A model generated the notes under the pieces. That model had not been told where the DNA came from. It made no database searches and worked only from the letters and a program-made list of their open reading frames with translations. From the NCBI RefSeq assembly GCF_000739635.1, contig NZ_BATQ01000041.1, positions 62,001 to 126,000 of the forward strand: DNA of 64,000 nucleotides, written 5' to 3'. The stretch is from Verrucomicrobium sp. BvORR034. Lineage in GTDB: Bacteria > Verrucomicrobiota > Verrucomicrobiia > Verrucomicrobiales > Verrucomicrobiaceae. This document shows, in pieces, positions 33,064 through 55,020 of the stretch (position 1 is its first letter; each line of letters opens with the position of its first letter). Made by a program: the position numbers and the translations under genes.

Positions 33064-33140
<77 letters not shown>

Positions 33141-33154
33141 ATTTCAAGTCCTTC

Positions 33155-33190: not shown

Positions 33191-33300
33191 GGCTACCGCC
33201 CCAAACGGGGCGTGTGCCTAGGAAATCACGCTGCGTGTGCCCTGAACCGGCACTTCATTTTCCGGAAGGAATTTGCCTGTGCCCTTTCCCGAGCACAGAC

Positions 33301-38006: not shown

Positions 38007-38007
38007 T

Positions 38008-39717: not shown

Positions 39718-39769
39718 AACTTGACCTGCATCAATCTGATACACCCGATCTATATCTTCTCAGTCTTCT

Positions 39770-40213: not shown

Positions 40214-40482
40214 GCGGCAGAGATGGAATCATCTTCAAGCTCATCCTCTTCCTCTTCCTCTTCCTCTTCGTCGAGTCGGGCTAGGTGCTTCCAGGCTTCT
40301 TCCATGAGATGCTGAGACAATGCGAGTTGCTTCTCGTACGGGATGCCAGCCTTGTTCATGGCATCCATGGTGCGTTCCTGGTCGATTCGAATTTCACCGG
40401 AGGCACCGGCGACAAACTCGCCGGTGCCAAGCTCCAGATCCATTTTGAAGCGAATGACCAATTCATCAGAAGGGGTGATCAT
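40210..40482 (-). CDS. Small acidic hypothetical protein
   Basis: 90 aa from the ATG at 40482 (MITPSDELVIRFKMDLELGT). No family recognised. The C-terminus carries an uninterrupted run of eight Glu, coded by a CTTCCT-type microsatellite on the plus strand (about 40243-40276), which is likely to change length by slippage. It is the only leftward gene in this part of the element. Confidence 0.5.
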   Translation of the reverse strand: MITPSDELVIRFKMDLELGTGEFVAGASGEIRIDQERTMDAMNKAGIPYEKQLALSQHLMEEAWKHLARLDEEEEEEEEDELEDDSISAA

Positions 40483-40588
40483 AAGTGAAGCCTGTGATGA
40501 ATGGACGCTCGCGCAACACAAATGTGCGGTCTAACTTTAAATGAGCGCGTTATTGACCAGGCGGTGCAGGTATTGCATGAAATAACTC

Positions 40589-42205
40589 ATGTGCCATGGC
40601 TGGGACATCGCCCCACATGCGAACCGGAGAACCTGCCCGGCTGGACGATTGATTCTCAAGGCTGCCTCAGAGCTTGCTTTTCTCACACAACCCAATTGCC
40701 AGGTGAAGATCGACCAACACTACGCCTCCGATTACTGGACCGAAACTTTCGGCAACACCATCTGTGTGTACTCGCAGGTGCTGGGCTTGCCTCCCGTAGA
40801 GACGGCTCTGTTCATGGCCGGAGTGCTTTGCAATCTCAGCGGCCACACTGCTGCATTGGCGGACGGTGTATCTCATCACGGCATCCCAGGCTTCAGCCTG
40901 ACCGTTGTGGGCTCTGGGGATCATCGGTACCAACGGCTCCTCGACAAGCTGGTAGGGCCGGTGAAGTCGATTCAGGTTCACCTCAGGGAGGGCGCGCTTC
41001 GTTTGAACCGGTCCGTGGTCGATGGGCATACTTTTGGCCCTGTCAATGGATTGGCGGGTTTGCAGGGACAGCCGCGGAGTGAACTGTACGAGCAGTTCCT
41101 GAAAATGTGGGACGCGTCGGCGCAGGTAATGAAGCGCGGGGCAACGGTACCCCATGTTTGGGAGGAAAGGGATCCGATGATCTATTTTGGTAACTATGGC
41201 GAAGTCGAGATGGCATTGCAGTCCCGGCTCCCGGATACCCACCATCGTCCGACCATTCTTCATCTGACCAATGATCTCACCCGGCTCGAGGAGGTTCTGG
41301 GCGAGGTGTTTGATCAGAGGTTGTGGGTCGTGGATACAGCGGGAGGATTTTTTGGGAGCACCTTCAGCAAAGGGGCCGCAGCGGGAAACCGGTCCTTGCT
41401 ACAGTTGGCGTCCCTGCTTGCCGGCAAAGACATCGAGGTGAGCAGGCTCCATCCCGAGCAAGGCTACGGATCGCTTCAGCATGCCCAGGTCAGGGTGATG
41501 ACTTGCTCTTGCGAATCGCGCCTCGCCGACATGCTCTCCATTGAGATGGCTTCAGCCCGTCCCTCGCTTCTTCAGGAAATGTTGCTCGTAGCCCCGCAGT
41601 GGAAACCGATCATCGTGCTCGAAGACCCAAAGTGGTTTGCAGAGGCGCAGGCCGCCTACCGAGCAGCCTTGTTGGAGGTGATCAATCATCGCATCTGCCG
41701 GAACGGACCCGTTCACAAATTGGGTAGCGAGAACATGACCAACATTTGGAAGGTTGAGAGTGCTTTCGTCAATACGCTGGACAGCAGTGCTGTCGATTTG
41801 GGTAGTCACACCAGGGTGCTCTCTTGTTTGGTGCGGCAGTTGGTGTGGGCGTTTGGCCTCCTGAGGCGGGAAGGCGAACCCTTCTGGTGTCTCAGAGCCG
41901 CAGAGGTCGTAGCGCACCATGCCGCAGCGGCACATCTGGGACAGTTGCGAACCTGTCGGCAGCTTGCCAGTTCCTCCGAGGCTCAGCGCCTGGAAGAACG
42001 AATTGTCCGCAACCTGGAAAACAAGGGCCCCTCTACCCGGAGGGAAATCCAGCGGTCCTTGTTCGGTTGCAGGCAGCGTGAACTGGCTGGTGCACTGGAG
42101 GCCTTGATCTCGAAGGGAGCCCTGGCGTTTGACCGCCAGTCTGAACGCTTCGCCATTGATGTGCAGAGGGCGACGATTGCTGGGGAGGGGCACGGCGCAT
42201 CCTGA
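40589..42205 (+). CDS. DUF3987-like element protein 1
   Basis: About 538 aa; the start is uncertain, because the first ~25 residues (MCHGWDIAPHANRRTCPAGR) are not protein-like, and a better-looking stretch lies in another frame upstream (ITHVPWLGHRPTCEPENLPG). The body resembles the DUF3987 class of mobile-element helicase/primase-like proteins in layout (DYWTETFGNTICVYSQVLGL, ETALFMAGVLCNLSG), but no Walker A is present. The C-terminus is a winged-helix-like tail (NKGPSTRREIQRSLFGCRQR, then ALEALISKGALAFDRQSERF). Stop and next start are 2 bp apart. A recent frameshift near 40650 is possible. Confidence 0.55.
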   Translation: MCHGWDIAPHANRRTCPAGRLILKAASELAFLTQPNCQVKIDQHYASDYWTETFGNTICVYSQVLGLPPVETALFMAGVLCNLSGHTAALADGVSHHGIPGFSLTVVGSGDHRYQRLLDKLVGPVKSIQVHLREGALRLNRSVVDGHTFGPVNGLAGLQGQPRSELYEQFLKMWDASAQVMKRGATVPHVWEERDPMIYFGNYGEVEMALQSRLPDTHHRPTILHLTNDLTRLEEVLGEVFDQRLWVVDTAGGFFGSTFSKGAAAGNRSLLQLASLLAGKDIEVSRLHPEQGYGSLQHAQVRVMTCSCESRLADMLSIEMASARPSLLQEMLLVAPQWKPIIVLEDPKWFAEAQAAYRAALLEVINHRICRNGPVHKLGSENMTNIWKVESAFVNTLDSSAVDLGSHTRVLSCLVRQLVWAFGLLRREGEPFWCLRAAEVVAHHAAAAHLGQLRTCRQLASSSEAQRLEERIVRNLENKGPSTRREIQRSLFGCRQRELAGALEALISKGALAFDRQSERFAIDVQRATIAGEGHGAS

Positions 42206-42207
42206 CG

Positions 42208-43641
42208 ATGACCCGAAACATTCTTTCACTGGAGAGACCGATCACTGAGCATCGTGAGTGTGCCTTGCGCCAGGTGCCCTCGGTGGTCAGTGACTACGTG
42301 CAACTGGCAGCCTCCAGGTGGGGGCTTGGTGTGGCTCCCCTTCTTGCCGCCGCGCTGCATCACTTGTGTTCGGTCCAGGCGCACCGGCATCGTTTGCGTG
42401 AGACGCACATTGGCCACTCCTGCCCGTTCAATCTCATCGTTTGCACGCAGCGGCCTTCGCAGGACAGATGGTTCGAGTATATGGGAGAGGCGTGGATGGG
42501 AGTGGTGCGTCACAATATGCGCCAGCATCAAGCCAAGGGGCGTGAACGTCTTGAGGCTGAATACCGCAAGCTTGAGCAAATGAGATTGCTCCCTGTCGGG
42601 ATGGTGGGCAGCCCGGTTCCTGATCAACTGGACAGGCAACTGTTTGAGGTCGCCAATCAGTACAAGCCCTGCCTTGTAGAACGACGGTCGGGAGCCGCGG
42701 CGGCACTGAAGGCCTTGGAGAACTGCAACGACCTTTGCGTACTCCTAACCAATGGTGGGATGGATCCCGTGGAAGAGTTGCTCAATTCGGGACGCAAGGT
42801 CTGTCTGGACCTTGCCTCTCTGCTTAACTTGAGCTGGTCGGACATCGGGCTGCCTGGAAAGTCTCCCGTACCGACCCGTGGCATTGTGCACCTGTACTGG
42901 TGCACGTATGCAAGTGCCCTGCGCCGCCTGCTACTGGGTCTTCGCAGCCCATGGGCTTGCAACCAGCCACCGATTCTGCTGGTGCGGCAGCATGACCCCG
43001 CCTGCCTGAACGAGCTGCCCGTGGAAGACAAAACCAAGGCCTGGGATGAACTCTTGCTGAAGGGGCTGATACAACGACTGGCATTGTCCGAAGTGAGGGC
43101 GTGGTCCTTGTCCCCAGAAGCTTCCCAGATGATGGTGGATTTCAGAAAGCAATCTCTCCAAGACTGGAATGGGGCAGTGGATCCTCTGGCCTTGCCGGAC
43201 TTCTTTCCTTCCCTGGCATTGCGCATGGCCATGTTGCTTTCCGCCCTGGAGTTGAACACGGAGTCTCTGAATGATGCGAGCCTCGTTTCAGTCTCAGTGA
43301 TGGAACGTGCCTGTTGCCTCGCGCAATGGATGGCCAGTGAACATCGGGATTGTCTTCGATGGTTGAAGAATCCCCATGCCGGTGATGTCGATGACCTGCT
43401 TCATGACCGGGGCATCGACACCATTGACTTGGAAACCTTGAAGCGGGCGATTCCCGAAAAACTCCAGGTGAACGGACCACTGTCACCGCGAGATCTGAGC
43501 CGGAGCTTCCATCGTCTTCCCAGAAAGGCTCGAGACCTGGCTCTGGCGCGATTGTTGAAGGATGGTGTGATCGAAGAATTACCCGATGGCAGACTGCGAA
43601 TTGCCCCGACTGCTGCCAATGTCAGCGTCAGCGGCGGTTAG
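42208..43641 (+). CDS. DUF3987-like element protein 2
   Basis: 477 aa. The N-terminal part (VSDYVQLAASRWGLGVAPLL, AAALHHLCSVQAHRHR, GHSCPFNLIVCTQRPSQDRW) follows the DUF3987 pattern up to the point where Walker A would be, but the GxxGxGKS loop is absent. The C-terminus has a winged-helix-like tail (GPLSPRDLSRSFHRLPRKAR, ALARLLKDGVIEELPDGRLR) built like that of the preceding gene, so the two are probably diverged paralogues. Translationally coupled to that gene. A DNA-binding scaffold or inactive helicase-like role fits. Confidence 0.55.
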   Translation: MTRNILSLERPITEHRECALRQVPSVVSDYVQLAASRWGLGVAPLLAAALHHLCSVQAHRHRLRETHIGHSCPFNLIVCTQRPSQDRWFEYMGEAWMGVVRHNMRQHQAKGRERLEAEYRKLEQMRLLPVGMVGSPVPDQLDRQLFEVANQYKPCLVERRSGAAAALKALENCNDLCVLLTNGGMDPVEELLNSGRKVCLDLASLLNLSWSDIGLPGKSPVPTRGIVHLYWCTYASALRRLLLGLRSPWACNQPPILLVRQHDPACLNELPVEDKTKAWDELLLKGLIQRLALSEVRAWSLSPEASQMMVDFRKQSLQDWNGAVDPLALPDFFPSLALRMAMLLSALELNTESLNDASLVSVSVMERACCLAQWMASEHRDCLRWLKNPHAGDVDDLLHDRGIDTIDLETLKRAIPEKLQVNGPLSPRDLSRSFHRLPRKARDLALARLLKDGVIEELPDGRLRIAPTAANVSVSGG

Positions 43642-43751
43642 GGTGGGGGTGTTGCAGCGAGGCGTGAAAGCCTATATCGACAGCTAGGCTGGCGTGCTGC
43701 GTCTTGCCAGATCGACAGAGCCTGCAACAGAGCCTGCTCCTGTGTCATATA

Positions 43752-43770
43752 AACCTGAGAGACTCAGGTT
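43752..43770. promoter_or_regulatory. Perfect palindrome, putative operator
   Basis: AACCTGAG AGA CTCAGGTT, 8-bp arms around a 3-bp centre, 25 bp before the small gene at 43795. A T/A-rich stretch lies just left of it. Likely a repressor site for the block that follows; the binding protein is unknown. Confidence 0.45.
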
Positions 43771-43794
43771 AGCTGATCTCACTATTGCAATCTC

Positions 43795-44010
43795 ATGTCC
43801 CGTCCCCGTCACTATGTACCCTGCATTTCGCGGAACGTGGTGTGCGCTCTATTTCACGAAGCCAAACACCGGCGCAAGCCGATGACCCGGCTCGTGGATG
43901 AACTGCTCACGGCTGCCCTCACCGGCACTCCTGGATGGCAGATCGCGCACACTCCTTCCTCTGTGATTCAGGAATCACCACCCACAGTCTATAGCCCCCC
44001 CAGGCCGTAG
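43795..44010 (+). CDS. Small hypothetical protein
   Basis: 71 aa (MSRPRHYVPCISRNVVCALF, HEAKHRRKPMTRLVDELLTA, ALTGTPGW). The basic, Met-Thr-Arg-Leu-Val-Asp-Glu-Leu-Leu segment resembles the first helix of ribbon-helix-helix proteins. No Shine-Dalgarno sequence is evident. It is the only plausible gene between 43642 and 44127; the rest of that stretch holds the palindrome at 43752 and the hairpin at 44044. Confidence 0.4.
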   Translation: MSRPRHYVPCISRNVVCALFHEAKHRRKPMTRLVDELLTAALTGTPGWQIAHTPSSVIQESPPTVYSPPRP

Positions 44011-44043
44011 CCTTCGATCACTCCTCCTTCCCTTGTTCGACTG

Positions 44044-44068
44044 ACCCGGCCTTGCGCCGGGTTTTGTT
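44044..44068 (+). terminator. Hairpin before 44128 gene
   Basis: ACCCGGC / GCCGGGT stem followed by TTTGTTGTTT. It begins 34 bp after the stop of the small gene and is the first of six hairpins that precede the genes of this block. Confidence 0.75.
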
Positions 44069-44127
44069 GTTTCAGGGGCCGGCGGTTCAACTTCAAAACC
44101 AAACTCCAATTTGAAAGGAACACTTTT

Positions 44128-44685
44128 ATGGCCATCACCTTGTCAGCCAACTACAGCAAAAAGCTCGGCCTACCAGCCTTCAGCAGCCACAGCTTCAGCG
44201 CCTCTGTTCAGGTCGAGCTCACGGACCTTTCTCAGGCCGAAGCCGAATGCCGGAGGCTTTATCAACTACTGCAGCAATCCGTGGATCGTGAGATCCAGCA
44301 AGTCGGCTTTGTGCCCGATCCCTGCACCTACGGCATCGTGGATGGACGGGCCAGCTTCGGCAACGGCCCAGCTCCCTACAAGAAAGGAAGGCGAACGGTG
44401 CCTCTCACCGACGGACAGGCCCGTTCACCCCATGGGACGGACGCTCCGTGGCTCTGCACCGAAGGCCAGCGGGGATTCATTCTGCGCCTGGTCAGCGACT
44501 ATCAACTCGACAAGCAACGCATTGATGACCTCGCCCTCCAGCTCTTCGGAGTCGGGGTGAGACTGCTCAACAAGATGCAGGCTTCCCAGCTCATTGATGA
44601 GTTGCTCACTCAGGTTGGCAAACCCCGCCAGACGCGCCTGCGGCATCCAACTCTCAACGGTCATGCTCATGACCGCGCTGCCTGA
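44128..44685 (+). CDS. Hypothetical element protein
   Basis: 185 aa, soluble. It starts MAITLSANYSKKLGLPAFSS and contains VQVELTDLSQAEAECRRLYQ; the C-terminal half is helical (DDLALQLFGVGVRLLNKMQA). No family recognised. A GAAAGGA ribosome-binding site precedes the ATG at 44128, after a G-poor leader. The wording of its start (SFSVSVQVEL-like) recalls small single-strand-binding accessory proteins, but this is too weak to name it. Confidence 0.6.
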   Translation: MAITLSANYSKKLGLPAFSSHSFSASVQVELTDLSQAEAECRRLYQLLQQSVDREIQQVGFVPDPCTYGIVDGRASFGNGPAPYKKGRRTVPLTDGQARSPHGTDAPWLCTEGQRGFILRLVSDYQLDKQRIDDLALQLFGVGVRLLNKMQASQLIDELLTQVGKPRQTRLRHPTLNGHAHDRAA

Positions 44686-44731
44686 GGGCCCGGTACCTGC
44701 CGCCCCACAAAGGACATCCCAAACTCCACAA

Positions 44732-44765
44732 CAGCGGAGGCGTGGTGATCGACCCGCCATCGCTG
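44732..44765 (+). terminator. Hairpin before 44798 gene
   Basis: CAGCG-GA-GGCG pairs with CGCC-AT-CGCTG (two stems with one internal loop), followed by CTTTC and a G-poor leader to the ATG at 44798. Weaker than the others of the series. Confidence 0.45.
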
Positions 44766-44797
44766 CTTTCAACCCTCAGTTCATCATCACTACCATC

Positions 44798-46414
44798 ATG
44801 TCATTCCCATTCTTCAAAGGTGTGGTCCTTTCCATGGGCCACGCCTTCCTTCTACAGGGGCTGTTGCTCCTGTGTCCCTTCAGTCTGGTGGCGGGTGCCC
44901 AGCCCTCCACCAGCATCGTTCCAGATGAGAAGTACTTCCTCCTCCGGTTGCTGGAAGAAATGCCCGGGTTCCATGCCCCGGCAGATGTTTCATCACAGGC
45001 CCTGGAGCGTTCCCTTAGTTCCTGGCGCAGTGCGCTGGTCCGACACGCCGCCGACCTCAAACGTCAGCCTAGCTATGCGGAGCTCGAACCGCTCTTCCTC
45101 AAGCAGATCGAGCTGGTGGACTTTCAGGCCAGCCAGCTTGTCAGTCTGGGGAAACTCGAACAACAGGTGCTCAATCAGCAGATCCAGAGCGGCTTTGACT
45201 CCGGATACGCTGGAGGCATGGCGGGATCTCAAGCTGCTGCCTTGGCCTCAGAGAACGGCTTCTCCAACGGAGAATCCCTCCTGGCTGGAGCCGCCGTTGG
45301 TCTGTTCACCTACTTCGCAGAAAACCAGCAGCGTTCCGACGCGCTGGCCAACGCGCAGCAGGATCAGTTCCTCCAAGCTGATCGCGCCTGGCGGACTCGG
45401 TGGTCTGAATACCAGGCCCAGGTTGCTGCCACCGCCCTGGCGCTCTCAGAACAACATCAATGGCCTCGGGGTTCGGTAGGCTGGGACGAAACTCCCCAAG
45501 AAGATGTCCGGCTGGCAGGCTTGATCAACGCCAGTGACGTGAAGGCGCTTCAGGCAGAGTTTGAAGCCCAACGGCGCCGGCGTCCTCAGGATCCGTTTGC
45601 TGTTTCTCGTGTGGCCATGCTCGCTCCCTTTGTGGAGTCAGATCCCGCCCGACTTGCTACAGTGGCCGAGGACTGCGCCAACGCTGCGGCGTGGGTGCCT
45701 GCACGACGCATCTATGACCCCTACCGGTATCTGCTCGCCTATCGGGCGGCCGATACCCACGTCAAGGCAGTGGGGCACGCTCTCAAAGGCAAGGCACGTG
45801 TCAATGCCCGGGATCCCCTGGCGTTGCGCGCGATCCAGTACTGGGACGCCTGTCTGGCTCTCGATCCTGGTGATGCCACCGGCGAACTGCGGGAACGCAA
45901 AGCCTGGATGCTCATGACCAGTGGTCTGGTGGACAATGCTTACACGTTGGCTACCGCGGTCGCTCCGCTGCGTGGGCGCACCTTCCGCTACCACTACAAC
46001 ATGGCGGTCCTCAACACCTATCGTGGCGGCGACAACGCGGCCCTGGAACACTTGGACGCCACCGTCCGGATTCCCGGGTGCAACATCAAGCCCTTGTGGA
46101 CCGATCTGGATCTCGCGCCTTTGCGAAATCGTCAGAAGCAAAGGTTCGAGAACATCCTCAAGGTCAACTGGAAGTCTGAAGTCGTCTTCGGCGTCCTGCT
46201 TGATGATGTGGTGCTGCACAACAAGTCACCCTTCACGCTGACCAACGTGGTCTACCAGACCAACATCCGTTCGGGCAGCCAATGGTTCCGCAAGGAACTG
46301 ACGGTAGCCTCCATCGGACCCGGCCAAAGCCATCGCTGGATCAACGTCCTCTCCATTCCGGGAGGCAAGATCGACTACTCATCGCCTTCGTTGCGATGTG
46401 ACCAGTCGCGTTAA
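44798..46414 (+). CDS. Exported protein of unknown function, helical repeats
   Basis: 538 aa from the ATG at 44798 (MSFPFFKGVVLSMGHAFLLQ). A signal peptide ends near LVAGAQPS. A long helical region with a glycine-zipper-like stretch (GFDSGYAGGMAGSQAAALAS) is followed by TPR-like helices (YWDACLALDPGDATGELRER, AWMLMTSGLVDNAYTLATAV) and a beta-rich C-terminus (SPFTLTNVVYQTNIRSGSQW). No enzyme motif. Possibly a cell-envelope protein of the element; together with the next two genes (lipoprotein, membrane protein) it may form one envelope module. Confidence 0.65.
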   Translation: MSFPFFKGVVLSMGHAFLLQGLLLLCPFSLVAGAQPSTSIVPDEKYFLLRLLEEMPGFHAPADVSSQALERSLSSWRSALVRHAADLKRQPSYAELEPLFLKQIELVDFQASQLVSLGKLEQQVLNQQIQSGFDSGYAGGMAGSQAAALASENGFSNGESLLAGAAVGLFTYFAENQQRSDALANAQQDQFLQADRAWRTRWSEYQAQVAATALALSEQHQWPRGSVGWDETPQEDVRLAGLINASDVKALQAEFEAQRRRRPQDPFAVSRVAMLAPFVESDPARLATVAEDCANAAAWVPARRIYDPYRYLLAYRAADTHVKAVGHALKGKARVNARDPLALRAIQYWDACLALDPGDATGELRERKAWMLMTSGLVDNAYTLATAVAPLRGRTFRYHYNMAVLNTYRGGDNAALEHLDATVRIPGCNIKPLWTDLDLAPLRNRQKQRFENILKVNWKSEVVFGVLLDDVVLHNKSPFTLTNVVYQTNIRSGSQWFRKELTVASIGPGQSHRWINVLSIPGGKIDYSSPSLRCDQSR

Positions 46415-46453
46415 TCCTCCGGCAAGGCACAGTGCTTTGCTCGCCCCTCCATC

Positions 46454-46488
46454 GCCCCGTGCCGACACCCGTTGGCACGGGGCTTTTT
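46454..46488 (+). terminator. Hairpin before lipoprotein gene
   Basis: Perfect 10-bp stem GCCCCGTGCC / GGCACGGGGC followed by TTTTTC, 40 bp after the preceding stop. Confidence 0.85.
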
Positions 46489-46540
46489 CATTTCAATCCC
46501 CACTCAATCCAAACCCAAACTCAAACCTTCAGACCCAACC

Positions 46541-46807
46541 ATGAAATCATCCCTGCTATTGCTGTTGAGCGTCCTGCTGCTGGCGTCCTGCGCCAAGCAA
46601 CCCCCCAGGACGGTCATCCAGCCTGATGAACAGGCCCGACGTCGCGTCGTGGAACTGGAGCAGCAACTCCAGCTTCAGCGTAAGAACACCGACCGCTGGG
46701 AATTCTACACCGGATGCCTGGGTGTCGCCTGCCTGGTCTGCCTTGTTATCGGAACCTCCCTTGGAGCCAAGACCCGCCATGACTCCCTCCTTCAATCCCG
46801 CCTCTGA
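46541..46807 (+). CDS. Small lipoprotein
   Basis: 88 aa from the ATG at 46541. Signal peptide with lipobox LLASC (MKSSLLLLLSVLLLASCAKQ), a coiled-coil stretch (QARRRVVELEQQLQLQRKNT) and one C-terminal membrane helix (FYTGCLGVACLVCLVIGTSL). This two-anchor build resembles phage Rz/Rz1-like or entry-exclusion lipoproteins. It overlaps the next gene by 29 bp. Confidence 0.65.
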   Translation: MKSSLLLLLSVLLLASCAKQPPRTVIQPDEQARRRVVELEQQLQLQRKNTDRWEFYTGCLGVACLVCLVIGTSLGAKTRHDSLLQSRL

Positions 46808-47306
46808 CGAGGACGACGATCCCTGGCAGGCTTCCGATCAATTGTCTGCCCGGGCTCCAGATCCATCCGAGAAGCCCACTTGGGTGCGTCGCACGCGAGG
46901 GTTGATCACCACCACGTGGTCTCCGCAACCGCTGCCTACGCCCCGGGTGGATCCTGAGCTCTCGCAGTTCTCCGGCGTGGAGCGTTCCGCCGAGGTCTTT
47001 CGCTACAACTTCCGTTTGGCGGAATACTGGCTGTCCCCGGGAGGATTCATGCGGGAGTGGATCCGGTTGAATGTCCGCATCGCCCTGGCGCTGCTGGTCC
47101 CTTCAGTCCTGGTCGTTCCGCTGGTCACCTACACGCTGCAACAGTTCAGCGTGTGGACAGAGCTCCTAGCCACCACCACTTCCAAGATGGTGCTCTTCCC
47201 GCTGTCAGCCTTGCTGGTGGTGGGACTCGTCTGGGGTCTGGTCCATCTGGCCAAGTCCTTCCAAGGACGACCGCGGCACCGTCATCCCCATCAGTACTAC
47301 GAGTGA
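46779..47306 (+). CDS. Membrane protein of the element
   Basis: 175 aa from the ATG at 46779 (MTPSFNPASDEDDDPWQASD). A hydrophilic N-terminal half is followed by two membrane helices (IALALLVPSVLVVPLVTYTL and MVLFPLSALLVVGLVWGLVH). No family recognised. Overlap with the lipoprotein gene indicates coupled translation and a probable shared role in the envelope. Confidence 0.6.
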   Translation: MTPSFNPASDEDDDPWQASDQLSARAPDPSEKPTWVRRTRGLITTTWSPQPLPTPRVDPELSQFSGVERSAEVFRYNFRLAEYWLSPGGFMREWIRLNVRIALALLVPSVLVVPLVTYTLQQFSVWTELLATTTSKMVLFPLSALLVVGLVWGLVHLAKSFQGRPRHRHPHQYYE

Positions 47307-47353
47307 GCCCTCACGGCTTGCGCGGATTCACCCACAAACCCAGCCCACGCATC

Positions 47354-47386
47354 AGAGCCGTCCGCCGCACCCCGGTGGACGGCTCT
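47354..47386 (+). terminator. Hairpin before ligase gene
   Basis: Perfect 10-bp stem AGAGCCGTCC / GGACGGCTCT followed by TGTGCTTTC, about 48 bp after the preceding stop and about 43 bp before the ligase ATG. Confidence 0.8.
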
Positions 47387-47428
47387 TGTGCTTTCAACCC
47401 ACCCCAACCTCAAACCTCAGAACCGTTC

Positions 47429-48502
47429 ATGGAAACCACCACCCTCTACTGTCAGCAAGGTCCTTCGGACAAAGTGTACAGTGTCAGCCTCAAACCCGAA
47501 GGTGACGGCCATGTCGTCCTCTTCGCCTACGGCCGTCGCAATGCCACGCTCAACACGGGGCGCAAGACGCCTCACCCCGTGCCCTACGATCAAGCCAAGG
47601 CCTGCTACGACGGACTCGTCCGTGAAAAGCTCGCCAAAGGCTATCAGCACGGCGAACCTGGGACGGACTACCAGCCTTCACGGCCCGGCAAGCCGTTCAC
47701 CGGCATCCTGCCCCAGTTGCTCAATCCGGTCGATGCTGACGATCTGTCCGGTCTGCTGGATCATCCGGCATTCTGGATGCAGGAGAAGCACGACGGGCGG
47801 CGGCTTCTGCTACGGCGGCGGTCCGATCTGGTCACGGGCATCAACCGTCTGGGCCTGGAAACCTCCGTGCCCATGCCCATGGTGGAAGCGGCCCGGCGCA
47901 GTGTTCACGACTTCGTCGTGGATGGCGAAGCGGTGGGCAATTGTCTGTGCACCTTTGACCTGCTGGAGCTCGATGGTGAGGACTTGAGGGGGCTGCCTTA
48001 CGGGCAGCGTTACCTCAAGCTCATCCAGGTGCTCGCCCCCTTGAAAACCGCCAACCTTCACTTCGTGCAGACCGCGTTCCTGCCGCATGAAAAACACCGG
48101 ATGCTTGAGGAGCTCAGGCAGCAGGGGAGGGAAGGGGTGGTGTTCAAGTCCTGCGATGCGCCGCACTCTGCAGGTCGTCTCTCCTCGGGTGGACCGCAGC
48201 TCAAGCACAAGTTCTATGAAACGGCCTCCTTCATCGTGGGCCGCATCAATGAACAGCGCAGTGTGGGCCTGTTGCTCTTTGAGGGCGACCGGATCCGTCC
48301 TGCAGGCAATGTCACCATCCCTCCCAACCACGATCTGCCCCTCTCGGGCCAGGTGGTGGAGTGCCGCTACCTCTATGCGTTTCGCGAAAGCGGAGCCATC
48401 TATCAGCCGGTCTTCCTGGGCATTCGGGAAGATGTGCTCTCAGCAGAGTGCCTCACCGGCCAGCTCAAATACAAAAGTGAACCCCTCGGTCAGGCCGCCT
48501 GA
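47429..48502 (+). CDS. WGR-domain ATP-dependent DNA ligase
   Basis: 357 aa from the ATG at 47429 (METTTLYCQQGPSDKVYSVS). Residues 5-80 form a WGR domain (VVLFAYGRRNATL). The ligase core has motif I EKHDGRR (K120, site of adenylation), motif III FVVDGEAV (E167), motif IV REGVVFKS (K240) and motif V QLKHKF (K259/K261), and ends with an OB-fold-like region. It is an ATP-dependent enzyme, distinct from the NAD-dependent LigA that bacteria use for replication. Its place beside an element polymerase and clamp suggests it seals element DNA or repairs ends. Confidence 0.88.
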   Translation: METTTLYCQQGPSDKVYSVSLKPEGDGHVVLFAYGRRNATLNTGRKTPHPVPYDQAKACYDGLVREKLAKGYQHGEPGTDYQPSRPGKPFTGILPQLLNPVDADDLSGLLDHPAFWMQEKHDGRRLLLRRRSDLVTGINRLGLETSVPMPMVEAARRSVHDFVVDGEAVGNCLCTFDLLELDGEDLRGLPYGQRYLKLIQVLAPLKTANLHFVQTAFLPHEKHRMLEELRQQGREGVVFKSCDAPHSAGRLSSGGPQLKHKFYETASFIVGRINEQRSVGLLLFEGDRIRPAGNVTIPPNHDLPLSGQVVECRYLYAFRESGAIYQPVFLGIREDVLSAECLTGQLKYKSEPLGQAA

Positions 48503-48533
48503 CCACCGGTAGAACCCAACCCGCCCTCATCCC

Positions 48534-48584
48534 ACGCCACGAGCCCCTCGCTTCCTTCCGGAGGCAGGGGCTCGTGGCGTTTTG
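48534..48584 (+). terminator. Hairpin before clamp gene
   Basis: Long stem ACGCCACGAGCCCCT / AGGGGCTCGTGGCGT (15 bp, perfect) followed by TTTTG. Confidence 0.88.
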
Positions 48585-48627
48585 GGAGGACTCATTCAGC
48601 CCCAACCCATTTTGAAAGGATTTCATC

Positions 48628-50100
48628 ATGACCCCCATCTCGCTGCCCATGGCAGAACTCAAACCGGCTCTCACCGGGCTGGGCAAGATCATCCACCGTC
48701 AGTCTACTCTGCCGGTGCTTCAGTGCCTGCGGATTGAACGCACCGTCGACGGCTGGGTGTGCCTGACGGCCACCAATCTGGAGCGTTACGCGACCGTCCG
48801 GCTGGAACAGCCTGCCGAGGGCGACCCTTGTACCCTGCTCGTTCACTTTGACGATCTGGTGCGCGTTGCCAAAGCCTGCGTCCGACAAGAGAGCATCGGC
48901 ATTGAGCAAACCTCGCCCAAGTGCGTGAGCGCAAGCTTTGCCCTCGCAGGCAAGATCGGCATGAACAAGCTCCGGTCCCTTCCTGTGGCCGAGTATCCCG
49001 ACCTGCCCAGAATCGCTGGCGAACCTGTTCCTTTACCCGGACCGTTCCGCACGGCGCTGAAGGAGGCGATGGATTGCACCAGCAAGGACCACACCCGGCC
49101 AGTGCTGGAGGGCGTCTGCATCGATGTCAGCGTGCCTGATGCCCACTATGTGGTGGGCACCGACGGGAAGCACCTGTACAGCGGCAACTCACTCCAGCTG
49201 GCGTTGCCCCATTCTCTGGTCTTGCCCCGGCACAAGTTTCTGGCGTGGCGGGACTTTCAATCAGATGGCGAGTGGTGGCTCACCAAGGGCGCTCACAACG
49301 GTCTGGACCATGTGCAGATCAGTTCCCGCCGCTGGCGGTTCATCACCCGGGTCATCGATCATCCTTACCCCTCCTGGCGGCAGGTGGTACCCGGCGACAA
49401 ACGGTTCATGACGGCCATCCGATTCGATCCCCTGAAGCTTGATGGCGTCCTCCAAATGCTGGAGCAGATGGAAGAGCAGGAGGATGAATTCCGCACCGTT
49501 GGCATCGAATGGCGAGGCGGCAAGGTCCAGTTCCTTCACCACCCTGCCAATGCTGGCAAAGCCTGGGATGAGGTGGCCGTGCCGGGTGCATCGGGGCAGG
49601 GGGTGGAAGTCACAGTCTTCTGCAACCGGCTCCTGCTGCTCAAGGCCCTCAAGTTCGGGCTGCTCGAGCTCGACCTTATTGATGAACTCAGCCCCCTGCG
49701 GTTCCGCGAGGGCGGGCGTCGCCTCATCGTCATGCCCGTCCGGGTCAGGACCACCTCCGATCCCGAACCCGGCCCTGTCCCCGTCAACGCCCCGGCGCCT
49801 CGTCATTTGCCCCCGATCAAAGCCCCCCATCCCCATTCAGCACCCGACATGAAACCACCCATCAATTCAAACCCTCTGGCAGATCCCCGACTCCAGCCAC
49901 CTGCAGAACCGGGTTCACCCCGGCTGGAGGACGTTCTGGAGTCGCTCGACCAGTTGAGGGATTCCTGCACCAAGAGTCTGTCACAGATCAAGGACCTCAC
50001 CGGCAAGCTCCGTCTAATCCAGCGGGATCAGCGTTCCTCCCAGCGAGGCCTGCAGACGGTGCGGCACACCTTGCGGTCCCTCCAGGGGATCCGGTTCTAG
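48628..50100 (+). CDS. DnaN-like sliding clamp with C-terminal extension
   Basis: 490 aa. Residues 1-370 follow the three-domain beta-clamp pattern: domain 1 LKPALTGLGKIIHRQSTLPV...CLTATNLERYATV, RSLPVAEYPDLPRI; domain 2 FRTALKEAMDCTSKDHTRPV, YVVGTDGKHLY; domain 3 with FREGGRRLIVMPVRV at the end (the family's terminal PMRL-like strand). Residues 370-490 are an extra Pro-rich linker and a coiled coil (LEDVLESLDQLRDSCTKSLS) not found in chromosomal DnaN. A GAAAGGA site precedes the ATG. It probably tethers the element polymerase and ligase to DNA. Confidence 0.87.
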   Translation: MTPISLPMAELKPALTGLGKIIHRQSTLPVLQCLRIERTVDGWVCLTATNLERYATVRLEQPAEGDPCTLLVHFDDLVRVAKACVRQESIGIEQTSPKCVSASFALAGKIGMNKLRSLPVAEYPDLPRIAGEPVPLPGPFRTALKEAMDCTSKDHTRPVLEGVCIDVSVPDAHYVVGTDGKHLYSGNSLQLALPHSLVLPRHKFLAWRDFQSDGEWWLTKGAHNGLDHVQISSRRWRFITRVIDHPYPSWRQVVPGDKRFMTAIRFDPLKLDGVLQMLEQMEEQEDEFRTVGIEWRGGKVQFLHHPANAGKAWDEVAVPGASGQGVEVTVFCNRLLLLKALKFGLLELDLIDELSPLRFREGGRRLIVMPVRVRTTSDPEPGPVPVNAPAPRHLPPIKAPHPHSAPDMKPPINSNPLADPRLQPPAEPGSPRLEDVLESLDQLRDSCTKSLSQIKDLTGKLRLIQRDQRSSQRGLQTVRHTLRSLQGIRF

Positions 50101-50133
50101 ACGTCATCTCCACCAGTTCGAATTCGCCCACGT

Positions 50134-50164
50134 GCCAGGCTCATCCTTCTCAGGGTGACCTGGC
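50134..50164 (+). terminator. Hairpin before DUF932 gene
   Basis: GCCAGG-TCA-CC pairs with GG-TGA-CCTGGC with small bulges, followed by CGCTTTGTTTTC. Confidence 0.7.
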
Positions 50165-50251
50165 CGCTTTGTTTTCGGACAGCTCACTCCCCCGACAATC
50201 CACCCATCAACACCCCCCTTAGAAATCCAAACCTTCAAACCAAGTATCACC

Positions 50252-51022
50252 ATGAACCAACTCATTGAACCACCGCGCGTGCGTCGCATGCCCAACCTCA
50301 TGCTCCATTGTGGAGCCCATACCGTCGACATGGCAGACGTCGCCGGCGTCAGCACTCCCCGTGCTACTTCCACCTGGACGCCCATTCCGCATGCCCAGCT
50401 CATCCAGACCGTGCAACGGGCTCTGGGTGCGGCAGGGCTGCGTATTGGCACCCAGGCTCACAGCCTCAGTCACGAAGGCCAGCGCTACTTTGGTCTCATG
50501 GAGATCAACGGTGGTCGGGCCAACGACGACTACTGCTGGGTCCTGGGCCTGCGCAACAGCCACGACAAGACGTTCCCCGCCGGCATCGTGGCCGGGGCCA
50601 GCGTTTTTGTTTGTGATAATTTGTCGTTTTCAGGCGAGGTGAAGTTCGCCCGTAAACACACCCGCTACATTGTGCGGGATCTGCCTCTGCTCACGGGGAG
50701 GTCCATCGGTCAGTTGATGTCCAAGTGGACGCACCAGGACCGGCGGATTGCGGCCTACAAGGAAGCCAGTCTAGACGACGTCACGGCCCATGATCTCATC
50801 ATCCGAGCAACGGATGTCGGCGTGTGCAGCAACCGGCTCATCCCATCTGTCTTGGGTGAATGGCGGGAACCGCGGCACCAGGTGTTCCAACCGCGCAATG
50901 CCTGGAGCTTGTTCAATGCCTTTACGGAATCCCTCAAGGAGGGAAGCTTGGCGGAATTGCCCAAGCGGACGGAGGCGTTGCACGGGTTGATGGACAGTCA
51001 TGTTGGGCTTGGGCTCAACTAG
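50252..51022 (+). CDS. DUF932 (phage/plasmid-like) protein
   Basis: 256 aa. The DUF932 core is clear: NGGRANDDYCWVLGLRNSHD, FPAGIVAGASVFVCDNLSFS, EVKFARKHTRYIVRDLPLLT. The family is found mainly in plasmids, phages and integrative elements; its function is not settled, although some members lie in recombination or anti-restriction loci. It is the last rightward gene of the hairpin-separated block. Confidence 0.88.
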   Translation: MNQLIEPPRVRRMPNLMLHCGAHTVDMADVAGVSTPRATSTWTPIPHAQLIQTVQRALGAAGLRIGTQAHSLSHEGQRYFGLMEINGGRANDDYCWVLGLRNSHDKTFPAGIVAGASVFVCDNLSFSGEVKFARKHTRYIVRDLPLLTGRSIGQLMSKWTHQDRRIAAYKEASLDDVTAHDLIIRATDVGVCSNRLIPSVLGEWREPRHQVFQPRNAWSLFNAFTESLKEGSLAELPKRTEALHGLMDSHVGLGLN

Positions 51023-51133: not shown

Positions 51134-53554
51134 CTATGCCGTAGCCCGGACACGCTCTCTGACGCGGGCATAAAGCTGTTGGAAGACTCCGGATTCTTCT
51201 TCTATTCGGACGACCACAGATAACGGGACTGTTTTTTGATCGTCTTTCAACCATCTGGCCGCGCCCAAGACGGAAACTGCGAGGGTGTAGTCGTTCGCGC
51301 TGTACCCTGGTTGATGCTCTGCCCACTCAAAGACGTCATGTTGGAGCGCCCCATCGCTGCGCTGATTGATTCCCACATTGCCAATGAAATGGTCAATACT
51401 GTCCTCTGTTGCGACATTGGGCTCATCTTGATCTCGCTGATGTTGAGCCATAATATCCGCAGTCGGCTTATCACCGCGGTAAAGCCAAAACTTGAATCTA
51501 GCACCCAAATATTCTCCGAAACCCCACTTCTGGACGTGAGGTGAAGTGGCGACCGCAACGGTAATACTCTTCTTGCTTCGGCCAGTGCTCGCTAACTCGG
51601 AAGGCACGTGAATTCTAAAAATCGCGGTGGAATCAACCTCCAAGGAACCGTCCCAATACAGCAGCACGGAATGGCCTCGGCAATGCATTGCAGCGCTTCC
51701 ATCAGGTCTCCCGTAGCCAACCAGTGCCAATGCCTGATCTTTGGTGAAACTGGCCGGAATCAAAGGTTTTTTACAAGACACGGCCAGGAACGCACGAAGC
51801 AGCGTTGCGCTAGGGTTGAGACCGAGGATTTTGCAATCACGCAAGATTGTTGCCAGATGATTGGCTATGCGTGGTGCTGCGAAGCTGGTCCCAATACTCC
51901 GTTGCAATGCGGGCGTCAGCCTGTTGCTCGCCATCACAACATCAGTGCCCATATTTCGGACTATTCTGTTGGTTTCAACGTCGCGCACCAAACTGCCCCC
52001 GTATTCGACAACGTCCGGTTTAATGGCGCGCCCAAAACCAGGGCCGCTTCTACTAAAAGGGGAGGGCTCATCCAAATTGGCAATGAGCGAATGAGCGGCA
52101 CCCGCCAAATGCGTTGAGTGCGCAAGCGAGCCGCAGATGACGCTGAGTGCGGAAGGCCCAGGGTCAAGCAACTTTGCAAAAGGAGTTAATAGGTAATGTG
52201 GATATGGTGCTTGGGTTTCTTCTTCAAGCTCTTCTGCTTCTAGCGGCGCAACATTGCCAGTGATGCCCACAAACACTATGTCGTGCTCGCGACTAAGCTG
52301 ATCGAGCGTTCTGGCAATCCACGCATTTCGTGCAACTTGGCGTCGAGTCGCGTGACTCCAGATGTGCCCCTGCATTTCAAATGCCAGGACAAATATTCTC
52401 ACACCCTGTGGAACAAAATGCTCAACTATCTCGCGGAGGATTCGGGAAAGCAGCCAGGCCTGCTGTGCCCTGTCCTCAACCGCATCTTCTTGTCGAGGAG
52501 AATCCAATTCTCCCGCGTCAGTCATGATGCGGGCGCTCGCAATCCAGGCCGTGGCCTGATTCTGATCACCATCAGCAAAGCCGATCGAATGAAACGCCGC
52601 CAGCGAACCTACACCAGAACCATGTCCATGGGCATCTTCGGTTGGGGATGCACCATACACCCAAGAACGACTGTCAGCGGGTTTTGTGACGGGTCCCAAG
52701 AAAGGGTTGCCTGTCGCAATGCCGCTGTCAATTACACAGATCGTCTCAGCATCGGGAGGCGGCGGGGCAATCGTGATGTTATCTACATTGAAAGCGTTGA
52801 ATACTTCGCTCATCGTTTGAAACCTTGGGCGCAGTTCGAAACGTGAGATCTTTCGCCACCACTTTGGATTTTCAACCCACTCCGCGAGCTTGCTCCCCTT
52901 TGTTCCAACCATTAGGATAGCACCTTCGCCTTGGAAATCCGTGTCATAAACGTGACCATGGATACCTCGACCGAGAGAAGCTCGAATCTCGGCCACAATA
53001 TTTTCAACTTCCCGTCTCTTGGTGGAATCTCGACTTGCTTGAGTCGCGCTTACCTCAATTTCGTATACGACATGGTCTTCAGAAGTCAAAGTTTCGTAGA
53101 CCTCGTGAAACTCATCTGACAGGCGCTCTTTTGGATCGGCGATGTCTAGAGCTGTCAGCTTCGTTATGAGTCCGGGTTGTCGTATCAGACCCGGCCTGCT
53201 CCCCGCTTCAAACTCTAGCGCCCGGTTTGCAAGCTTGTCGAGATTAACCTCTTTAGAGTAGACCAAACTTTCATCATCCCCTGGCTCGCCGAGGAAATGC
53301 AAGCTTGTTCCACTCAGATCCTTCAAACCAAGTGGTCGATCATGCTTGAGTTTAAGAATCACCGCCCGTCTTTGTTCCGGAGTCAAGGAGGAAAACGCCC
53401 GCTCGACTTTGATTTTCTCAGCGATGACACGAGACGCCACATCTCGCCGCTGCTGCGGCGTGAAAGGAACTATGGTAGGTACAGGGTGACGCTGCCTTCT
53501 TCTTATGCGGACGTCAGGTGCCGCAAACGGCAACGGTGGCATTTCGGTGTTCAT
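51134..53554 (-). CDS. Subtilisin-like (S8) serine protease, cytoplasmic
   Basis: 806 aa from the ATG at 53554; further upstream the frame overlaps the ATPase. No signal peptide. An N-terminal domain of ~270 aa without recognised motif is followed by the S8 domain: Asp276 in CVIDSGIA, His311 in AHGHGSGVGS, oxyanion Asn434 in GITGN and Ser557 in GTSFAAP. A C-terminal beta-rich domain of ~200 aa ends it. Absence of a signal sequence implies action inside the cell. The start lies within the upstream AAA+ gene (41-bp overlap), so the two are coupled. Confidence 0.9.
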   Translation of the reverse strand: MNTEMPPLPFAAPDVRIRRRQRHPVPTIVPFTPQQRRDVASRVIAEKIKVERAFSSLTPEQRRAVILKLKHDRPLGLKDLSGTSLHFLGEPGDDESLVYSKEVNLDKLANRALEFEAGSRPGLIRQPGLITKLTALDIADPKERLSDEFHEVYETLTSEDHVVYEIEVSATQASRDSTKRREVENIVAEIRASLGRGIHGHVYDTDFQGEGAILMVGTKGSKLAEWVENPKWWRKISRFELRPRFQTMSEVFNAFNVDNITIAPPPPDAETICVIDSGIATGNPFLGPVTKPADSRSWVYGASPTEDAHGHGSGVGSLAAFHSIGFADGDQNQATAWIASARIMTDAGELDSPRQEDAVEDRAQQAWLLSRILREIVEHFVPQGVRIFVLAFEMQGHIWSHATRRQVARNAWIARTLDQLSREHDIVFVGITGNVAPLEAEELEEETQAPYPHYLLTPFAKLLDPGPSALSVICGSLAHSTHLAGAAHSLIANLDEPSPFSRSGPGFGRAIKPDVVEYGGSLVRDVETNRIVRNMGTDVVMASNRLTPALQRSIGTSFAAPRIANHLATILRDCKILGLNPSATLLRAFLAVSCKKPLIPASFTKDQALALVGYGRPDGSAAMHCRGHSVLLYWDGSLEVDSTAIFRIHVPSELASTGRSKKSITVAVATSPHVQKWGFGEYLGARFKFWLYRGDKPTADIMAQHQRDQDEPNVATEDSIDHFIGNVGINQRSDGALQHDVFEWAEHQPGYSANDYTLAVSVLGAARWLKDDQKTVPLSVVVRIEEESGVFQQLYARVRERVRATA

Positions 53555-54581
53555 TGGGAAGCGGTTTTCTTCTGCGCGTAGTCGCCGAGGAAATCTTCTT
53601 CTTGAACTGCTGCGCCGCTTTGAGAATGTCAGAGTTCCTCGCGGAAGCACGGTTCTCAATAACGGTCTCTTTTGCCACCTCAAAAACGGCCCTTTCCACT
53701 TCGGCAAACGAGCAACCCGCCATGCCTTTTGCTACGGGACTCAGGCTCCCCGCAATCTTAATTCCGCTAGTGAGATGTTTCAAAAGTGCCAACCGGTCCG
53801 CTTCGGAAGGAAGTGGAAACTCCACAACATCGTCAAAACGACGCCAAAGAGCACTGTCGAACAAATGAGTGTGATTCGACGCGAGGATCACGATGCTTTG
53901 GGACGACGTGAATGAATCCAGACCTTGCAGCAGAGCATTTACCACCCGCCTAAGCTCCCCTACATCATTATTATCATCGCGCGACTTTGCAATTGCATCT
54001 GCCTCATCAATGAGAAGCACCATGGGGGTCTGATTGGCAATCTGAAGTACCTTTTGAATATTTGCGCCAGTTTCGCCAACGTAACTGGTAATCAAGGCAG
54101 CCAAACGAACGACTCCAAATGTCAATCCCAACTTTTGAGCTAGCCATTGTGCCGTAGCGGTTTTGCCACACCCCGGTGGCCCCCAAAAGAGCAGCTTGCG
54201 ACGAGGCATCAAGCCAGCTTCCGCAAGTTTGGTTGCAGACCGATGTTCTCTCAAAACAATGTCAATGGAATTGAGAGTTTCCTTGGGAAGAACCAAATGG
54301 CGGGAATCTGAACTTTGACTGAATGAGATCAATCCTGGCATCTGTCGCGTAAGAACCGAGATTGAAAGATTTGCGGCCGAAGGAGGGGCAACAGATGACG
54401 TTCCATTTTTCAATTCTTTGGGGCGAAGAGCCTCTCGAAGTGCCCGAGCTTCGCTGGGTCGATTCTGGACCGTGAACGCTCGTATAATCGCCTCAGTACC
54501 ACGTCGAAAGGCATCCTCGTCGTGTTCACGATGGGACACGATCATCGTTCGGAGGCTTTCGACCAAATCTTGGAATGCCAT
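53514..54581 (-). CDS. AAA+ ATPase partner of the protease
   Basis: 355 aa. An N-terminal region with helices (1-80) precedes one AAA+ module: Walker A GPPGCGKT (134-141), pore-loop-like SYVGETG (166-172), Walker B LLIDEAD (189-195), sensor 1 Asn236 and arginine finger(s) in ALWRRFD (247-248). It resembles the FtsH/p97-type AAA clade. It overlaps the protease gene by 41 bp, suggesting a two-component, ATP-driven protease or an ATPase that gates the protease. Such AAA+/S8 pairs occur in accessory regions; a defence role is possible but unproved. Confidence 0.9.
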   Translation of the reverse strand: MAFQDLVESLRTMIVSHREHDEDAFRRGTEAIIRAFTVQNRPSEARALREALRPKELKNGTSSVAPPSAANLSISVLTRQMPGLISFSQSSDSRHLVLPKETLNSIDIVLREHRSATKLAEAGLMPRRKLLFWGPPGCGKTATAQWLAQKLGLTFGVVRLAALITSYVGETGANIQKVLQIANQTPMVLLIDEADAIAKSRDDNNDVGELRRVVNALLQGLDSFTSSQSIVILASNHTHLFDSALWRRFDDVVEFPLPSEADRLALLKHLTSGIKIAGSLSPVAKGMAGCSFAEVERAVFEVAKETVIENRASARNSDILKAAQQFKKKISSATTRRRKPLPNEHRNATVAVCGT

Positions 54582-54722
54582 GACTGATTATCAGTAACAC
54601 CTTCTCCCCCAAGGCGCAAGAAGCGAAGCGCGTCTCATTGAGTGTTGGTTTTCTCGAAGTATAGTGTCTACAATACAAGTTCCAGGGCTAGGTCTGTCCT
54701 GCAAAGCATTGTGATCAGAGCA

Positions 54723-54968
54723 TCATGAATTGCTCCGCGTTTCCACCTCAGAGATGAGATCGGAGAGAGGAACGCCAAGGCCGTCAGCCAGAAGTTTGCA
54801 AATTAAGATCGAGGGGACACGTGTTCCAGCTTCCAGCATGATGATTCCGGTCCTGCCCACCTTCGAGACCTCGGCCAGTTTCTTCTGAGAAAGCCCAGCG
54901 TTCTGGCGGGCCTCGCGAAACACTGCTGCCAGGGTTTGGGTGAACTCTGCTGTGGGATCTTGCGACAA
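54723..54968 (-). CDS. XRE-family HTH regulator
   Basis: 81 aa. Typical Cro/CI helix-turn-helix: LAAVFREARQNAGLSQKKLA, EVSKVGRTGIIMLEAGTRVP, LICKLLADGLGVPLSDLI. It stands 141 bp upstream of the ATPase gene on the same strand. A perfect 18-bp palindrome lies 35 bp upstream of its start, the expected position for autoregulation. It may control the ATPase/protease pair and the rightward genes. Confidence 0.88.
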   Translation of the reverse strand: MSQDPTAEFTQTLAAVFREARQNAGLSQKKLAEVSKVGRTGIIMLEAGTRVPSILICKLLADGLGVPLSDLISEVETRSNS

Positions 54969-55002: not shown

Positions 55003-55020
55003 ATGTCCTAATTAGGACAT
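55003..55020. promoter_or_regulatory. 18-bp perfect palindrome, putative XRE operator
   Basis: ATGTCCTAATTAGGACAT between the divergent XRE gene and the zinc-ribbon gene. Every base is symmetric, and the AT-rich centre fits an XRE dimer site. No second copy of the palindrome was noticed in the window. Confidence 0.65.

Follow-up and report, generated by a model that had tools for sequence, protein, structure and literature searches.

Two overlapping genes, for an AAA+ ATPase and a subtilisin-like protease, lie beside an XRE-family regulator gene in the 64,000-nucleotide stretch of a Verrucomicrobia-type genome analysed here (hereafter the window, whose numbering is used throughout). The question raised by this locus was whether the pair is an undescribed defence module, as proposed in an initial annotation, or a known system, and what the two proteins would do together.

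Identity of the ATPase-protease pair

The protease gene, ietS, occupies 51134-53554 on the minus strand and encodes an S8 (subtilisin-like) serine protease of 806 aa when read from its ATG; the longest ORF begins at a TTG at 53707, and the alignment of the closest relative, which begins at residue 1, supports the ATG. The ATPase gene, ietA (53514-54581, minus strand), encodes an AAA+ ATPase of 355 aa and overlaps ietS by 41 bp (53514-53554, minus strand), exactly the overlap first annotated. A PADLOC scan, which the initial annotation had put forward as a check, named both genes: IetA was matched by the IetA models PDLC02196 (5.5e-77) and PDLC02195 (9.4e-67) and by Pfam AAA (3.7e-32), and IetS by the IetS model PDLC02198 (1e-61) and Pfam Peptidase_S8 (3.6e-18). 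The active sites had been described as intact, and they are: Walker A (GPPGCGK, 134-140) and Walker B (LIDEAD, 190-195) are in place in IetA, as is the D276/H311/S557 triad in IetS. IetS carries no signal-peptide-like or membrane-helix-like hydrophobic segment (mean hydropathy over 19 residues peaks at 1.37, close to the helix of the catalytic Ser), in agreement with the claim that the protease lacks a signal peptide.

With an IetA-type ATPase and an IetS-type protease bearing D/H/S, encoded by adjacent same-strand genes with the ATPase first, the pair is, as judged from its sequence, the already described IetAS, and an intact, ordinary member of that family. The initial annotation had been unable to name a described system with this pair, which is here struck off the list of undescribed defence systems. 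Assignment of IetA as the ATPase of CBASS was considered and rejected (TRIP13 match 6.4e-22 vs 5.5e-77 for the PADLOC IetA model). The CBASS TRIP13 ATPase works with HORMA and cyclase partners, and no cyclase or HORMA family was matched among the direct neighbours (XRE, IetS and DUF932).

Relation to published systems

The first descriptions of IetAS were of a toxin-antitoxin system, and phage defence was reported later. In the published system the subtilisin-like protease is the toxin and the AAA-ATPase the antitoxin; it is also catalogued as anti-phage, with its mechanism called unknown. Among the papers listed by literature searches, including those combined with phage or type I restriction, no study dealt specifically with how IetAS works in defence. 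The pair had been read initially as a defence or abortive-infection module with a dedicated AAA+ partner. The class was right, as PADLOC and the defence-rich neighbourhoods of relatives indicate; the system had already been described, and in homologues put to the test, the action shown for the AAA+ protein is to counter the protease rather than to drive it.

IetAS of the Agrobacterium plasmid pTiC58 (Yamamoto et al. 2009), which citing papers describe as a maintenance system, likewise combines, on a mobile replicon, an AAA-ATPase with a subtilisin-like serine protease, and the same-named PADLOC models match both genes here. The window pair differs in its setting, an island at a chromosomal tRNA-Met in a Verrucomicrobia-type genome, and in the XRE gene upstream of it; it was likened through the PADLOC models rather than through pTiC58 sequences. 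SgiAT of Salmonella genomic island 1 shares with the window pair a gene order that places the ATPase antitoxin ahead of the protease toxin, and the location on an integrative island; in E. coli, sgiT is toxic and sgiA gives protection, and sgiAT is proposed to stabilise SGI1 (PMC5006074). Host phylum and island differ, and activity was shown for SgiAT, whereas we infer it for the window copy. The phylogenetically distant Mycoplasma TA132/133 pair, which was likened to the window pair by both domains and their order, is reported in PMC8562856 and PMC6755753 as a functional toxin and antitoxin, deletion of the ATPase alone being lethal in JCVI-syn2.0 (PMC8562856). Both protein families and their adjacency are also those of the ietAS/Gao_Iet anti-phage system of PADLOC and DefenseFinder, from which the window copy differs in its divergent branch and in an anti-phage activity that is predicted only. 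Gao_Iet is said to originate from Gao et al. 2020.

Conservation and divergence of related loci

An IetS profile matched 21 other genomes at E 9.1e-14 or better, of which 20 were carried forward. A match near a contig end (G331, 6.2e-26), in a short locus without an IetA or IetS BLAST match, and a second match in G048, which contains an internal stop, were left out. The 21st related locus (L058) is another pair from the same genome as the window, and the window copy brings the set to 22. Order and strand of the two genes are the same in 21 of 21 related loci, with ietA-ietS gaps of -41 to +25 bp. D276, H311, N434 and S557 of IetS and K140, D192/E193 and R247/R248 of IetA are invariant across all 22; in the IetA pore loop, G169 is present in 22/22 and an aromatic residue at 167 in 21/22. 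Among eight weaker loci (L030-L037), both genes were found in one (L035), an S8 match alone in two and neither in five.

IetS shares 67% identity with its counterpart in one of the 21 other loci and 15-23% with those in the remaining 20; among named relatives, a Verrucomicrobiaceae MAG is the closest. On these identities the window copy is a divergent branch of IetAS, and the family is thereby extended to such a branch in a Verrucomicrobia-type genome. Homologues were also matched in 56 plasmid records, and in all five that were opened the S8 gene directly follows an AAA gene; identity of IetS to the plasmid homologues is 26-29% among the 15 of 56 matches listed, and because it is so low, the trigger and targets here may differ.

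A tRNA-Met-associated mobile island

A tRNA-Met at 33064-33140 (plus strand), the 3' half of which lies inside a 53-bp att repeat (33096-33148), is the integration site of the element and is followed by a tyrosine-recombinase integrase gene (33214-34560, plus strand; Pfam Phage_integrase 3e-9). No further copy of the tRNA-Met 3' end was found within the window, which at first suggested an absent att site; a whole-genome pattern search placed att copies beyond the window, with an exact second copy of the 53-bp repeat at 107,899 (window numbering), 44 kb past the window end. The island between the repeats therefore measures 74.8 kb with the pair about 18 kb inside it, and an element ending at the pair, as implied by its original placement at the far end of an integrative element, was rejected. 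The uninterrupted integration site was seen in a same-genus genome. The pair is A/T-richer, as annotated (GC 0.522 vs 0.615-0.630 in flanks outside the island). A shorter nested element may end near 55-56 kb. Two segments, 56.5-59.3 kb (at 84%) and 64.6-81.0 kb (at 94-96%), have their match at a different locus of a sibling genome, a possible sign that the island is composite. Wadjet-type JetC/JetD are also carried on the island; no complete Wadjet is claimed because JetA (PF11855) was not found in the genome and JetB (PF13835) was found on another contig only.

The pair is thus cargo on a mobile element, and it is patchy among relatives. In a single-protein search that overlooks diverged pairs and missed one present by profile in G066, an IetS protein match came from three near relatives out of 19 (the window's genome counted; one of the three partial) and from none of the three other genomes of the genus (one only 76% complete). 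Intact AAA+ and protease active sites would suit a housekeeping protein quality-control pair; this explanation was rejected as scarcely credible because of the patchy distribution and the mobile context (island; plasmids).

Defence-gene neighbourhood and type I restriction

Enrichment of defence genes around relatives, also named beforehand as a check, was clear: PADLOC families numbered 209 in 70 and 193 in 62 neighbour proteins vs 2 in 70 controls, counts that are non-independent in that a single restriction enzyme matches many models. The scan covered 132 of 193 listed neighbour proteins (L038-L052; L053-L058 were left out) and 70 of 100 listed controls. This enrichment bears on whether the pair is purely an addiction module that only stabilises the 74.8-kb island and has no direct anti-phage role. 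A purely stabilising role would accord with an integrative island bearing att repeats and with the description of sgiAT and pTiC58 ietAS as maintenance systems. It is judged unlikely, given the defence-rich neighbourhoods of relatives, the published report of ietAS as a phage-defence system and the presence of JetC/JetD on the same island.

In this phylum, five of the 21 related loci have type I restriction-modification (RM) genes beside or around the pair, vs 0 of 20 control stretches, a comparison biased by queries drawn from the test loci themselves; the PADLOC comparison is free of that bias. The order in L043 is hsdM-hsdS-DUF4268-ietA-ietS-hsdR, and no type I RM genes were found near the window copy. 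PrrC serves as a suicide switch kept in reserve for the case that restriction is blocked. Because type I RM clusters adjoin or enclose IetAS in those five loci, some IetAS pairs may by analogy be coupled to restriction as a switch of this kind, with the window copy as a stand-alone relative under an XRE switch instead; the proposal is rather doubtful, and it offers a testable idea of what IetAS watches.

Proposed mechanism

The preferred reading, to which a probability of about two in three was assigned, is an IetAS-type toxin-antitoxin and anti-phage operon, carried as cargo of the tRNA-Met island, in which IetA restrains IetS until infection or island loss. Free IetS would be a toxic cytosolic subtilisin-like protease, which IetA (p97/proteasome-ATPase type, first in the operon) would bind or remodel and so render harmless. 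For this copy, toxicity of IetS alone, neutralisation by IetA and an anti-phage role are predicted by analogy with published homologues, as are phage replication proteins as triggers; core phage replication proteins are listed as ietAS activators in PMC10732053. Infection would interfere with IetA, or the island would be lost and IetA would fade, and IetS would be freed. Freed IetS would, we infer, cleave cellular proteins and cause growth arrest or death, limiting phage spread and retaining the island in the population. Addiction is an uncertain step here because sgiAT expressed from its own promoter gave no post-segregational killing (PMC5006074).

The predicted structure of IetA resembles proteasome-activating nucleotidase and proteasome ATPases (3h4m_A, E 5.4e-18, TMt 0.84). 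Together with the pore-loop aromatic at 167, this would fit a degradation machine in which IetA unfolds selected phage or host proteins and threads them through its pore to IetS, in the manner of ClpXP or the proteasome. Subtilases such as KP-43 are open-cleft enzymes, not known to form closed chambers, and the S8 domain model of IetS resembles KP-43 (Z 27.8, 379 aligned, rmsd 2.9; families missing from the match list carry no evidential weight). This resemblance and the toxicity of the protease without the ATPase in tested homologues argue against a degradation machine, which is considered quite improbable. The N-terminal 260 residues of IetS have no recognisable relative in Pfam or, by N-terminal profile, among PDB sequences (nothing below E 0.14). 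Residues 162-238 form strand-helix-strand-strand-helix-strand in a low-confidence model, and on this secondary structure an inhibitory propeptide (I9)-like prodomain would be a candidate.

The XRE gene and its palindrome

The XRE-family regulator gene (54723-54968, minus strand; 81 aa, TTG start; Pfam HTH_3 2.4e-13) lies 141 bp upstream of ietA on the same strand. An 18-bp perfect palindrome (55003-55020), which precedes the XRE start by 34 bp, is a candidate operator of the XRE gene. Both had been annotated and are real; the window holds no other perfect palindrome of at least 16 bp, and no second copy within 2 mismatches was found in the genome. The pair had further been placed under an XRE regulator, an arrangement that is not general: a phmmer search against all ORFs of at least 60 aa in the 21 related loci, in which a single-sequence query can miss others, and a Pfam scan of upstream ORFs in 10 of them placed an XRE/HTH_3 gene directly upstream of ietA in L052 alone, where it touches ietA. 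XRE was therefore rejected as a core component.

A three-gene variant, with the XRE protein as a phage-responsive switch turning the pair on, could be argued from the nearby same-strand gene, the unique palindrome before it and the arrangement in L052. It is nonetheless improbable, as the other 20 loci gave no such gene directly upstream (Pfam covering the upstream ORFs of 10 loci) and the palindrome precedes the XRE gene, not ietA. The XRE gene is an accessory and possibly a local repressor; in the toxin-antitoxin and anti-phage operon preferred above, it and the single palindrome would probably set the level of the operon, or of XRE alone. In one further locus (L045), a Pfam-confirmed HTH_3 gene lies 4.5 kb away.

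Gene pair and assignment to IetAS

The two genes lie on the minus strand, ietA upstream (53514-54581; 355 aa), encoding an AAA+ ATPase (Pfam AAA, 3.7e-32), and ietS downstream (51134-53554; 806 aa from ATG, with an open frame extending to a TTG at 53707), encoding an S8 protease (Pfam S8 protease, 3.6e-18). PADLOC names the ATPase IetA (PDLC02196, 5.5e-77) and the protease IetS (PDLC02198, 1e-61), and we assign the pair to the IetAS system with a probability of about 0.97; the initial annotation, which could name no described system with this pair, is thereby corrected. The gene anatomy that it had described was recovered, with its named motifs at the same positions in both proteins, a 41-bp overlap of the genes, and a protease lacking a signal peptide: no segment resembling a signal peptide or membrane helix is present.

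The IetS profile was searched against 387 genomes of the phylum at a cut-off of 0.001 and gave matches in 70, many of them weak and to the protease domain only. The comparison set (n=21 loci) came from the 20 other genomes that matched IetS most strongly, genome G331 being left out, together with a further copy carried by the window's genome itself; IetA played no part in the choice. An IetA-like gene directly precedes the S8 gene on the same strand in all 21 (gaps of -41 to +25 bp). The pair is a divergent new member of the known IetAS family, its closest relative being that of a Verrucomicrobiaceae MAG (67.5% identity for IetS, 76% for IetA). The second AAA+/S8 pair of the window's genome (L058, G000:C119, 8316-11781) is likewise divergent and overlaps by 11 bp. 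IetS relatives were found in 56 of 72,556 plasmid records, and in the five of these that were opened an ATPase gene lay directly upstream (5/5); the ATPase of a Rhizobium plasmid is 35% identical to the window's IetA.

Conserved residues and structure models

Asp276, His311, Asn434 and Ser557 of IetS and Lys140, Asp192, Glu193, Arg247 and Arg248 of IetA are identical in 22/22 sequences (the window and 21 loci). Position 167 of IetA is aromatic in 21/22 and glycine 169 is present in 22/22, a pattern typical of the pore loop with which AAA+ proteins thread their substrates. The IetA model (mean pLDDT 84.3) most resembles proteasome ATPases and the proteasome-activating nucleotidase (3h4m_A, E 5.4e-18); its nearest match by sequence is p97. 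Residues 268-784 of the IetS model (mean pLDDT 70.1) align with subtilase KP-43 (Z 27.8, rmsd 2.9, 379 aligned), a match that takes in the catalytic domain and the greater part of the beta-rich C-terminal region. Model quality is poor in parts of the N-terminal 260 residues, and a search of solved structures gave no sequence relative for this segment.

Published homologues and proposed mechanism

The pTiC58 pair was reportedly first described as a toxin-antitoxin system by Yamamoto in 2009. Its homologue on SGI1, sgiAT, was tested in E. coli, where transformation fell 100- to 1000-fold with the protease, a drop that the ATPase averted (PMC5006074). Mycoplasmas have a functional AAA-ATPase/protease pair of this kind, with deletion of the ATPase alone lethal and deletion of the protease or of both genes not (PMC8562856, PMC6755753). 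Published lists place ietAS among phage-defence systems whose mechanism is unknown (PMC9958689, PMC11878078) and name core phage replication proteins as its activators (PMC10732053). In the mechanism that we propose, and that we consider probable, IetS would be a toxic, free-acting cytosolic protease kept in check by IetA, encoded first in the operon, until this restraint fails on infection or when the island is lost.

XRE gene and palindrome

An XRE-type gene (54723-54968; 81 aa; HTH_3, 2.4e-13) and a perfect 18-bp palindrome (55003-55020) are present upstream, as had been noted initially. The most plausible view of the XRE gene is that it was added locally to ietAS: an HTH_3 gene was found immediately upstream of the pair in 1/21 related loci, and the palindrome precedes the XRE gene and not ietA. 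The palindrome is the sole perfect one of at least 16 bp within the window, and a second genomic copy was not found at up to 2 mismatches.

The tRNA-Met island and its other genes

A 53-bp exact repeat at 33096-33148 spans the 3' half of tRNA-Met, next to an integrase gene (33214-34560), and recurs at 107,899 (window numbering, past the window end); another copy, 38 bp long, follows 367 bp later. In a genome of the same genus (G389), sequence matching the left of the tRNA (91%) joins directly to sequence matching the right of the second repeat (83%), and the site is therefore uninterrupted there; at this locus (L081) two more partial tRNA copies follow. The repeat positions and the uninterrupted site together give an insert of 74.8 kb bounded by 53-bp exact direct repeats, and place the pair roughly 18 kb inward of the integrase end, whereas the initial proposal had put it at the far end of the element. 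Three other genomes of the genus (one 76% complete) gave no IetS match in a single-protein search, a method that overlooks diverged pairs.

Also on the island are matches to JetC2 (E 0; L091:1146-5519, L091 being a stretch of the island beyond the window) and JetD2 (2.6e-111; L091:5516-6805), parts of a Wadjet-type system, together at 85,046-90,705 in window numbering. The genome gave no match to PF11855 for JetA; JetB was matched on another contig only. Two ORFs just upstream of the JetC2 match (82,341-84,077 and 84,082-85,296) could encode JetA/JetB. A replication-like gene set occupies 37819-51022, with a family A DNA polymerase (37819-39717), a DUF3987-like protein (42208-43641, below cut-off), a WGR domain with ATP-dependent DNA ligase (47057-48502), a weak beta-clamp match (48628-50100) and, last, DUF932 (50252-51022). 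The 859-aa protein adjoining the integrase (34552-37131) has no Pfam or PADLOC match.

Neighbourhood of related loci

Proteins around 15 of the related loci (L038-L052) were scanned with PADLOC at a cut-off of 1e-10, with stretches from the same genome group as controls; the families matched numbered 209 (70 neighbour proteins) and 193 (62 proteins), versus 2 (70 control proteins). With this richness in defence families beside relatives and the PADLOC names, the broad class suggested initially, defence, stands.

In 5/21 loci (L043, L046, L049, L051 and L057) IetAS adjoins type I restriction genes, being next to or within type I restriction-modification clusters, and in 2/21 (L038 and L045) it adjoins SNF2-type helicases; neither family was found in the 20 control stretches (0/20), a comparison biased by queries drawn from the test loci themselves. 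The window gave no match in this search; nesting among type I restriction genes applies to part of the phylum and not to the window copy. The order in L043 is hsdM-hsdS-DUF4268-ietA-ietS-hsdR, the hsdM and hsdS labels being inferred from cross-matches. At the locus of the closest relative (L038), the gene immediately upstream of ietA encodes a serine recombinase, and the last 14 bp of ietS are shared with a gene for a SNF2 helicase that also has a PLD-nuclease domain (L038:12730-16212); this branch may thus have a third partner.
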